DNA from: a virus
IMG/VR virus record: IMGVR_UViG_3300028553_000140
Span: 1-26,621 of that record
Length of the DNA: 26,621 nt
Reading direction: 5' to 3' (one strand)
Of this stretch, positions 9,265 to 25,820 are shown piece by piece. Under the pieces are notes generated by a model that had not been told where the DNA came from, ran no database searches, and saw nothing but the letters and a program-made list of their open reading frames with translations. The position numbers and the translations under genes are program-made. Position 1 is the stretch's first letter. Each line of letters begins with the position of its first letter.

Positions 9265-9279
9265 TCGCCCTCGTACATA

Positions 9280-9342
9280 ACTTCCCACCATTGTCATTTT
9301 CTTGTAATGACTAAATTCTGGGAAGTCTTTAGTCCTTACAAG
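9280..9342 (+). ncRNA. Structured leader RNA with alternative/pseudoknot pairing upstream of the scaffold gene
   Basis: A long stem forms between CTTGTAA-T-GACTAAA (9301-9315) and TTTAGTC-C-TTACAAG (9328-9342): 14 pairs with one mismatch and a 12-base loop. The loop contains TGGGAAGT (9319-9326), the perfect complement of ACTTCCCA upstream (9280-9287), allowing a pseudoknot. A competing inner hairpin GTCATT/AATGAC (9293-9298 and 9306-9311) excludes the long stem. A terminator hairpin starts at the foot of the stem. This looks like a folded regulatory leader, an attenuator or an RNase processing site. Pairing is visible in the sequence; function is inference. Confidence 0.55.
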
Positions 9343-9370
9343 AAGCTGATAATACAGCTTCTTTATTTTT
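9340..9370 (+). terminator. Intrinsic terminator (possible attenuator) before the scaffold gene
   Basis: Perfect nine-base stem AAGAAGCTG/CAGCTTCTT (9340-9348 and 9355-9363) with loop ATAATA, followed by TATTTTT and more T-rich sequence. It lies only 11 bases before the scaffold ATG and shares bases 9340-9342 with the preceding long stem, so the two structures compete slightly, as in attenuators. Confidence 0.75.
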
Positions 9371-9381
9371 AATTTTTTTCT

Positions 9382-16172: not shown

Positions 16173-17498
16173 ATGAATGATAATCCAGAGCAAGATGAGG
16201 GGATAAAAACCCTCAATCAGTTACTCGGAGAGACAGATATGCCCGAAGTACAAAGGGGAACAGACGGAAGAAAGTATTACATGATATATATTACAGTACA
16301 GGATTGACCAGTACAGAAAAAGAAGTGTGTACACGTTGATTGTGAACTCGCACAATCTGTCTTTGAAGATTATGTCCTTCATTGAGCAAATCTCACAGGA
16401 TTAGAAGTACAAAAGAAGTATGGAATGACAGGTAAAACATGGCAAGCGTTCAAGTCGTGCATGAATCTGGTGAAGCATTCGCTCCCCATTCCGCATGATA
16501 GACTCAAGTTTCTCACTGAGGCAGACATGGCAGATGAATTTGAAGAAATCATAGAACGTGGCGTAGATACTCATGTTGGGAAGATCCTCGACAAAGCTGG
16601 CGAAAAGAAGAGAAACGCAATGCTCAATGATTTTGCGATGAAGCTCGCAGTACAAGATTCATGGACACAAGATATAGTACAAGAATTTGACAGAGCTGGG
16701 ATGCCCTCTATCCCCCCTCGTACTTTTAGAAGCCAAGCTAAAACAGTAGAATCAGTATCTGTAATCCTGACAGATGCACACTTTTGAAATCGAGAAACCT
16801 ATGAAACCGCCAAAAGATTAGGAAGAGTTATTGATCACCTTATCGAACAACCAGTCGATAGAATAAACGTACTTATGCTCGGGGATGACCTCGAAGATGC
16901 AACTCAGATGTGAGCACACCCTGACACGAAGTTATCAATGCATCCTGACTTTCGACAACCTCATAAACTCATCTTGTATGTTTCCGCCCTCTACGCTGAA
17001 GAACTGAACCGCCTAAAAGCGAACCATGATGTAGACGTAAAAGCGGTACGATGAAACCATGATAGAGTAACAGAAAGTCGAGACGATGACCAGTTTCGAC
17101 TCGCTGGATGGATGATGCACCAACTCCTCCAACGCCAACTTGATTCTAAAATAGGATTTGAAGATTCTGATGAAACTATGCTCGTGACTATGATAAGCTG
17201 AATAGAACACTTTCTTTTTCATTGAGATGTGAAAGGTTTAGCAAAAATGAAACCTGACGAAATTGTCTCTCGATTTGGCAAGTTTAGAACACAAGGTGAG
17301 AAAGTTATCCTTAGCTGACATATCCATCGTCTACAACACGAACGAAGTGGAAGAATCAATAGAATAAGTGCTGGTGCTCTCACAGCTCCATGAGTCCATG
17401 AGATCCGTGAATGATATGTCACTAAAGATACAGAACCAACTATCACACTCCTACACTACAAAGGTGGAAAAGTAGACATTGAACATAAACAAATATAA
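16173..17498 (+). CDS. Calcineurin-like metallophosphoesterase with N-terminal helical/HTH-like region
   Basis: 441 residues. The metal-binding set of the family is complete: LTDAHFGN (Asp201, His203), MLGDDLED (Asp238), RGNHDRV (Asn295, His296), FHGDV (His350) and LSGHIHR (His383, His385). The Gly of GNHD, HGD and GHxH are all encoded by TGA, strong evidence for code 25. Such enzymes use a two-metal centre to hydrolyse phosphodiesters or phosphomonoesters; the substrate here cannot be told. Residues about 70-100 (GANLTGLEVQKKYGMTGKTW) resemble a helix-turn-helix, suggesting nucleic-acid binding. Phage MPEs of this type may act on DNA ends or nucleotides (inference). The ATG follows ATTCTTTT. 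Confidence 0.9.
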
Positions 17499-21600: not shown

Positions 21601-22032
21601 ATGAAACTAAAACCAAAAGAAGAGAAAATATGTAAATTCATTGAAGACATAATGTGGCTCTTCGAAGTACAGAATTATACAAGGACTATAAAATTCCCAT
21701 CAAAAGATGAGGAACACGGAGACAATCAATGTACTGCTGCCGATATAGTTTTCGACCCTATATATCGTACTGTGGTAATAAGAATATTCCCTGTATTCTG
21801 GGAGTGGGGCAAAGAAAGCCAAGCAAAAGCCATTATCCACGAGTTATGTCATTGTCGTACTGGAGACCTAGCTGACTGTGCAGAAAACCTACTTAATTGA
21901 ACTCTAGTAACCTCTGAGGAGGTAAGACACGCAAAAGAGAATACAACTGAGTATATGGCTCAAATATTCTTTGAACTCGCTAGAGGGAATAAGAAGTATT
22001 TTAGTGAAGCTATTGCAGAATACCTGAAATAA
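21601..22032 (+). CDS. Zinc metallopeptidase-like protein (HExxH)
   Basis: 143 residues with AIIHELCHCRTGD (His80, Glu81, His84: the zincin HExxH) and a downstream TTEYMAQ segment whose Glu117 could be the third zinc ligand, a layout like that of small phage zincins and SprT/ImmA-type domains. Cys83 and Cys85 around the second His are unusual. One internal TGA. Small zincins of this type in phages sometimes cleave regulators, but the target here is unknown. Own promoter, no operon partner. Confidence 0.75.
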
Positions 22033-22059
22033 CCCCTCAACACTTGAGAAAAAAAAGAT

Positions 22060-22087
22060 TTGCTTAATTCTAGTGAATGCCTATAAT
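22060..22087 (+). promoter_or_regulatory. Putative promoter for the replication gene
   Basis: TTGCTT (22060-22065), 16-base spacer, TATAAT (22082-22087). A start about seven bases downstream falls on the first base of the repeat arm GTGTTGTC at 22094. Confidence 0.55.
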
Positions 22088-22093
22088 GGTCTG

Positions 22094-22173
22094 GTGTTGT
22101 CGTAAAGGAAATTGTTTTTGTATTTAGAGGTTTGAGTGTAGTAGGTGACAACACAATTTCCGCCTACTGCACT
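22094..22173 (+). promoter_or_regulatory. Complex inverted-repeat element upstream of the replication gene
   Basis: AGTGTAGTAGG (22135-22145) pairs with CCTACTGCACT (22163-22173): 11 pairs with one G-U and a 17-base loop. The loop contains GACAACAC and, overlapping it by two bases, ACAATTTCC; these are perfect complements of GTGTTGTC (22094-22101) and GGAAATTGT (22107-22115) upstream. The order A-B-A'-B' permits alternative pseudoknots in RNA; as DNA, the TGTTGTC/GACAACA pair could be an operator. It spans most of the 163-base gap before the ATG at 22196, which has no gene. Confidence 0.55.
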
Positions 22174-22195
22174 GAAATCTCCAATCGCAAAAAGC

Positions 22196-22909
22196 ATGGA
22201 GTGATACATAAAAATATACAGGCAACTGCTCGACTGGGAGTGGTATACTGACACGCCTACAAAATCCCTATTTATTCATTTGCTACTCAAGGCAAATATA
22301 AAGGATTGAAATTGGAGGTGAACACCAGTACAAAAATGAAGTCTCATAACAGGTAGGAAAAAGCTATCTGAGGAGCTTTGATTGACCGAAAGCCAGATAA
22401 GGACATCTCTAGAGAAGTTAGTGTCCACCAACGAAATCGCCATCAAAACAACCAAGAGTTTTAGCGTTGTATTACTCAATAACTGGGATAAGTACCAAGA
22501 CCAAATCGCCAACAAAGTACCCAACCAATCGCCAACCAATCGCCAACCAATCGCCACAGGAGGAAAAGGGAATAAGGAAAGAAGTAAAGAATCTGATACA
22601 GAGATAGGTGTTTCTATCGAAACCTCTCCAAGAGATGAGACAAGGGAGTTTTTTGAATCTCTGGAAAATAATATAGAAGAGGTAATCATTTCTATCAACT
22701 CAGACCCAGAACACAGAGAAGTTTTGCGTGCCGAGCTTTTCAAGTTTTATAACTATTGGTGTGAGAAGACCCCAGACTGAAAAAAGGTACGCTGGCAAAC
22801 TGAAAAAACATTTGAAGTGAAACGGAGACTTACTACATGGCTAATGAATACAAAACAATTTACTTCTAACCAATCACAATATGTGAAAAAACCAAGAGTT
22901 GTTGGATAG
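22196..22909 (+). CDS. Winged-helix phage replication protein (DnaD/replisome-organiser-like)
   Basis: 237 residues, TAG stop. The N-terminal pattern GYIKIYRQLLDWEWYTDT, SLFIHLLLKAN, NWRGTPVQKGSLITGRKKLSEELGLT, then QIRTSLEKL and IKTTKSF is the common winged-helix domain of phage replication proteins that bind the origin. The C-terminal part (FYNYWCEKTPDGKKVRWQTEKTFEVKRRLTTWL, key residues Phe-Tyr-x-Tyr-Trp and Arg-Trp...Arg-Leu-x-x-Trp) is the DnaD-type tail that recruits the helicase. The ATG at 22196 is followed by codon TGA (MEGYIK), so the standard code would hide the gene's start. The linker is encoded by three perfect 11-base repeats (22521-22553). Confidence 0.85.
22521..22553 (+). 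repeat. Three 11-bp direct repeats (possible origin iterons) inside the replication gene
   Basis: CCAACCAATCG occurs three times in a row without a mismatch, with degenerate copies just upstream (CCAAATCGCC at 22501-22510). Eleven bases is one helical turn and is not a multiple of three, so selection on the protein does not explain it. Lambda and many related phages hold origin iterons inside the initiator gene. Confidence 0.75.
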
Positions 22910-23507: not shown

Positions 23508-23533
23508 AATCTCTACCGAGTATGAGTAGAATA
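23508..23533 (+). repeat. 26-bp dispersed repeat, copy 1
   Basis: AATCTCTACCGAG followed by TATGAGTAGAATA; the copy at 25795-25820 differs at one base only. It lies about 30 bases upstream of the -35 box at 23564. Confidence 0.8.
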
Positions 23534-25794: not shown

Positions 25795-25820
25795 AATCTA
25801 TACCGAGTATGAGTAGAATA
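25795..25820 (+). repeat. 26-bp dispersed repeat, copy 2
   Basis: AATCTATACCGAG followed by TATGAGTAGAATA, 25 of 26 bases as at 23508. It lies in the gene-free 25741-25900 interval, about 50 bases upstream of the -10 box for the final large gene. Confidence 0.8.

Follow-up and report, generated by a model that had tools for sequence, protein, structure and literature searches.

Introduction

In the rep leaders of IncI-alpha and IncL/M plasmids, control is exerted on translation of the replication protein and involves an Inc antisense RNA and a leader peptide. The N leader of phage lambda contains a long, RNase III-sensitive hairpin before an early gene that is expected to limit translation; we know of no upstream arms in this leader that are complementary to the loop. 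The mRNA of T4 gene 32 carries an autoregulatory pseudoknot near its 5' end, and the start region downstream of it is unstructured and bound by gp32. How phages of reduced, recoded CPR bacteria control their genes is, to our knowledge, very poorly understood. Further described cases are the plasmid repZ leader, in which a pseudoknot is found together with an antisense RNA (PMC8383071), and SPP1 gene 38, which carries the direct-repeat origin oriL within the gene (PMC6316719).

Here we analyse an intergenic leader in IMGVR_UViG_3300028553_000140, of which the whole stretch of 26,621 nt is called the window. The leader resembles those of IncI-alpha and IncL/M in that it precedes a replication gene and has a hairpin loop whose bases complement a different part of the leader, and it resembles the lambda N leader in having a long stem just before the start codon. 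We propose, with a probability of about one half, that this RNA leader acts in cis and restricts translation of a DnaD-like helicase-loader gene. If this is correct, a compact RNA leader would control the replication of a phage in which most genes have no Shine-Dalgarno match.

A structured leader before the replication gene

The reading frames of the record follow genetic code 25 (TGA = Gly). In a near-identical record the ends of the window are joined, which gives a genome of 39,390 bp that is circular or permuted. The following features, all on the + strand, make up the locus.

22060..22087, +: candidate promoter TTGCTT-16-TATAAT (weak), seen in the sequence and not listed by the promoter scan
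22094-22101, +: arm A, GTGTTGTC, perfect complement of 22147-22154
22107-22115, +: arm B, GGAAATTGT, perfect complement of 22153-22161
22147-22154, +: A', GACAACAC, in the hairpin loop, 8/8 with arm A
22153-22161, +: B', ACAATTTCC, in the hairpin loop, 9/9 with arm B
about 22113-22196, +: long hairpin over the leader in the minimum-energy fold, reaching the first base of the ATG
22196..22909, +: replication gene, DnaD-like helicase loader, code 25 (PHROG 2514, E 3e-24)

The first-pass annotation had placed the feature upstream of a replication gene, and the loader that begins at 22196 agrees with this. An alternative GTG start of the same frame lies further upstream at 22145; however, the relatives align from M-x-G-[Y/F]-I-K and we thus use the ATG at 22196. 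The preceding gene ends at 22032, which leaves a gap of 163 nt. Such a structured gap is unusual, as the same gene type in six distant relatives is preceded by only about 0 to 43 nt, where there is no room for such a leader.

All four arms were recovered where they had been described, together with an 11-pair hairpin formed by AGTGTAGTAGG (22135-22145) and CCTACTGCACT (22163-22173) that includes one U.G pair and encloses a loop of 17 nt (22146-22162). A' and B' overlap by two bases (22153-22154), and a single base (G) separates B' from the 3' strand of the stem. A one-base spacing between a loop segment and the 3' stem strand suits loop pairing. The earlier description did not include the extension of the hairpin to the start codon of the loader gene: in the minimum-energy fold, 31 predicted pairs form a near-continuous stem with single mismatches, small internal loops and four U.G pairs, closed by a 13-nt tip loop (-36.4 kcal/mol, z -5.4).

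It had also been claimed that the transcript starts exactly at arm A. The elements TTGCTT (22060-22065) and TATAAT (22082-22087) would indeed put the start near 22094, but this promoter is no better than expected by chance, with a 3/6 match in the candidate -35 element and 39 occurrences of TATAAT on the + strand compared to about 37 expected from base composition.

Several known element types were also considered. A tRNA or tmRNA was not detected, and no Rfam 15 family matched the window at its curated score, with only sub-threshold generic hairpin models at 22030-22260. An intrinsic terminator or attenuator at 22134-22173 was rejected, as the hairpin is followed by GAAATCTCCAATCGCAAAAAGC after 22173 instead of a U-run and does not appear in the terminator-scan list.

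The predicted fold is strongest as sense RNA

To estimate how often such a feature arises by chance, 800 dinucleotide-shuffled versions of the 39.4-kb genome were searched for stems of at least 11 pairs, counting the loop bases covered by perfect complements within 70 nt upstream. At least 15 covered loop bases, and thus the full feature, were reached in one of the 800 shuffled genomes and at least 14 in three; the test was designed after the feature had been seen and is thus mildly post hoc. A hairpin with accidental complements is therefore, in our estimate, quite improbable as an explanation. The post hoc choice of the feature speaks for it, as do 40 weaker matches to a similar motif across 885 kb from other phages, compared to about 24 in shuffles; apart from the shuffle test, it is at odds with a feature that is strand-specific, intergenic and adjoins the start codon.

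When scanning the + strand of the 39.4-kb genome in 1310 windows of 110 nt, the best two loci were 9271 and 22081-22220, both of which the first-pass annotation had pointed out. The leader hairpin ranks second and is the strongest coding-strand fold outside the element at 9280. A z of -5 is not unique on its own, since windows with z < -4 are found on the minus strand (seven) as well as on the + strand (six); none of the minus-strand windows listed falls at 22100-22200. The strongest minus-strand folds, at 34991-35100 (z -6.2) and 26801-26910 (z -5.4) of the 39.4-kb genome, lie outside the window.

We compared the sense RNA fold to the folds of the same 107 bases as antisense RNA (-23.6 kcal/mol, z -2.6) and as DNA (-15.1 kcal/mol, z -2.6), bearing in mind that the feature had been picked on the sense strand. 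The fold is weaker in both, as the four U.G wobble pairs keep the stem together in the sense transcript only. The locus thus behaves as a sense-strand RNA structure, in line with the RNA-level structure suggested before, and the predicted energies are suggestive of a role of the sense RNA rather than of a cruciform, an operator or an antisense RNA.

This comparison bears on the proposal that the leader is the target of an antisense RNA controlling replication as in plasmids, with the loop as the first contact site. Although the location before a replication gene and the exposed loop of 13-15 nt would fit, and the repZ leader provides a precedent for a pseudoknot combined with an antisense RNA (PMC8383071), we consider it very unlikely, as the antisense strand folds poorly and promoter-like sites in the region occur at chance frequency.

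A further alternative acts at the level of DNA, where A/A' and B/B' would be protein operators or the hairpin would be part of the origin. Two features are relevant here.

22523..22555, +: three 11-bp iterons, AACCAATCGCC, inside the replication gene; probable origin
22181..22188, +: CCAATCGC, a single iteron-core copy in the 3' arm of the hairpin; possible Rep site (weak)

The iteron array lies about 330 bp inside the gene; this DnaD-like loader shows both the protein-family match and the internal 11-bp repeats. As 11 is not a multiple of three, the repeat is kept as DNA and not as protein. Similar 11-bp repeats occur at a similar position in L003, L112 and L118 and in Staphylococcus and Pseudomonas phages. 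Judged from the sequence, the iterons are probably the origin of replication, and the earlier idea that the leader itself might be an origin structure thus loses ground. The other + strand copies of CCAATCGC in the window are only those in the three iterons. Through the copy at 22181, the protein might recognise its own leader, for which one 8-base match is a weak indication. While this copy and the oriL repeats inside SPP1 gene 38 (PMC6316719) are in favour of a DNA-level element, the stem would be much weaker as DNA with four of its pairs being wobbles, arms A and B were found together nowhere else in a search for operator copies, and the probable origin lies inside the gene at a position common to several relatives. 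We thus regard a DNA-level element as rather unlikely.

A further DNA repeat was observed in the window, where 26 intergenic bases at 23508-23533 recur at 25795-25820 (25/26 identical, core ACCGAGTATGAGTAGAATA), each copy preceding a gene group; this repeat is perhaps a phage promoter or operator. Outside the window, the otherwise near-identical phage records L115 (G002) and L113/L114 (G001) differ in a tandem repeat region with a period of ~54 bp by eye.

Predicted folding order and proposed effect on translation

The arms, the hairpin, the sense-strand bias and the buried start region are computed features of the leader. In the lowest-energy folds of the growing transcript, A:A' is present until about 22160, B:B' at 22162-22170 and the hairpin from 22172. 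The predicted energies of A:A' and B:B' are nearly equal (-11.3 and -12.2 kcal/mol), where the calculations ignore pseudoknots and proteins. Because of the two bases shared by A' and B', the two arms could not both be fully paired at once, and the 5 nt that link A to B would add strain. In the predicted folds, A and B thus exclude each other, but as successive steps towards the hairpin. The competition between the two pairings that had been suggested by the first-pass annotation is therefore retained for the nascent RNA; a stable form of its two-state switch is not supported, as the hairpin and neither A nor B dominates the final fold.

The region before the start codon is buried in this final fold. 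Positions -40..-1 and -20..-1 of the replication gene are predicted to be the least accessible among 36 phage genes, with 0.26 and 0.23 unpaired, respectively, for a gene list that is the analyst's own choice of ORFs. Most of these 36 genes have no upstream Shine-Dalgarno match and many have open AU-rich upstream regions.

We suggest the following order of events. Arm A would pair with A' as the transcript emerges, and B would then compete with A for the overlapping loop bases. Lastly, the long hairpin would form and enclose the expected landing region of ribosomes, from about -83 up to the start codon. The loop of the finished hairpin would still be accessible to one arm at a time, either A or B, in a putative pseudoknot or kissing contact. 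The net effect would be that translation of the loader is held low or delayed and that replication initiation is limited. A regulator of this translation block might be the ribosome, the Rep protein, an RNase or a small RNA. The leader model thus predicts a transcript start at A, three folding steps and a buried start codon.

The same hairpin might instead be an element of RNase III-type processing or of mRNA stability, with the hairpin of the lambda N leader as a parallel. By being cut or by shielding the 5' end, it would set the lifetime of the replication mRNA or activate its translation. The near-continuous stem of ~31 pairs directly before the start codon would be suitable for this, and with a transcript start at 22094, arm A would keep the 5' end paired. 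However, the match of the loop to two upstream arms is left unexplained, and we consider this explanation possible but unlikely.

Recurrence of the design in related phages

The leader was found in only one relative, L002, where it is 100% identical over 261 bases, and no diverged relative was found carrying it. The exact 15-mer of the loop has 52 matches in viral contigs, but the arms and the hairpin occur together only in the near-identical relative. Relatives of the replication gene were found in L002 (near-identical), L003 and L112 (unrelated, 44-47%) and the code-25 phages L118 and L129, of which the latter two were detected with TGA-containing degenerate patterns. By inspection, the replication genes of L118 and L129 have no such hairpin touching the start codon.

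In L129, a clean A-B-A'-B' element with the sequence GGTCGCCAA ... AACTGCTGGG ... TTGGCGACC G CCCAGCAGTTTTTT lies on the minus strand (5870-5805), about 350 nt ahead of the replication gene; its B:B' pairing resembles an intrinsic terminator. A similar but weaker arrangement in L118 shares GTGTTGTC and has a terminator hairpin, the loop of which matches upstream by short matches only; the L118 leader had no match in the strict scan for the design. In the terminase-related phage G008, two hairpins have a 10-base loop-loop complement; at L117 6185-6280 (G008 17185-17280), they make up a possible small RNA with its own promoter-like site and a terminator. A match of the G008 core in L127 was dismissed as a chance coding match.

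The first-pass annotation had noted that the design recurs within the window.

9280..9345, +: second element of the same design, with ACTTCCCA upstream, its complement in a hairpin loop and then a separate terminator

This element is real and is the other top coding-strand structure. Its gap is mostly identical in L058, including a run of about 67 bases, in surroundings of 5.7 kb that are about 79% identical. The intergenic element lies before the scaffold gene, with window positions 9265-9380 nearly identical to L058 8502-8619. The gap before the scaffold gene also contains a strong hairpin of different sequence in L059-L062, L065 (~40-50% terminase identity) and L066 (35%), so that the structure in this gap seems to be kept while the sequence changes. 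The pseudoknot form at the 9280 site is found only in the window phage, the near-identical records and L058. A recurring hairpin, e.g. ATAGGGAAACTCTTCGGAGTTCCTTAT, was also observed downstream of the major capsid gene of L059, L061, L062 and L074, in a gap of 63 nt.

The strict scan of four genomes detected four distinct coding-strand loci, whereas shuffled sequences would yield about 0.25 when all eight strands are counted. Five matches, of which two are the same element, were found in 621 kb of DNA from other low-GC phages, and one distinct locus had a score of at least 28. At the lower and the higher cut-off, the Poisson probability of the enrichment is about 0.02 and 1e-4, respectively, for small counts and cut-offs chosen after the fact. 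From these scans, the design in which a loop pairs upstream looks enriched in the code-25 phage group. Going further, one might suspect a new class of phage RNAs in code-25 (Absconditabacteria/Gracilibacteria-type) phages, with loops that pair to upstream arms before replication and head genes and, in the leader studied here, two competing arms in a timed three-step folding relay that controls synthesis of the replication protein. We consider this broader proposal speculative and unlikely.

Comparison with known systems

The leader differs from those of IncI-alpha and IncL/M, where the partner of the loop lies downstream and the pseudoknot activates translation: here, the partners A and B lie upstream and the hairpin covers the start. 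Furthermore, neither an antisense RNA nor a leader peptide was recognised in the sequence of this locus, which belongs to another type of replicon. With T4 gene 32 it shares a putative pseudoknot near the 5' end of the mRNA of a phage replication protein, whereas the start region is here located inside the stem. The direct repeats inside the replication gene resemble those of SPP1 gene 38 (oriL, PMC6316719), a likeness that concerns the gene and not the leader. Other members of the replisome-organizer family that we examined have little or no gap before the gene, unlike the phage described here.
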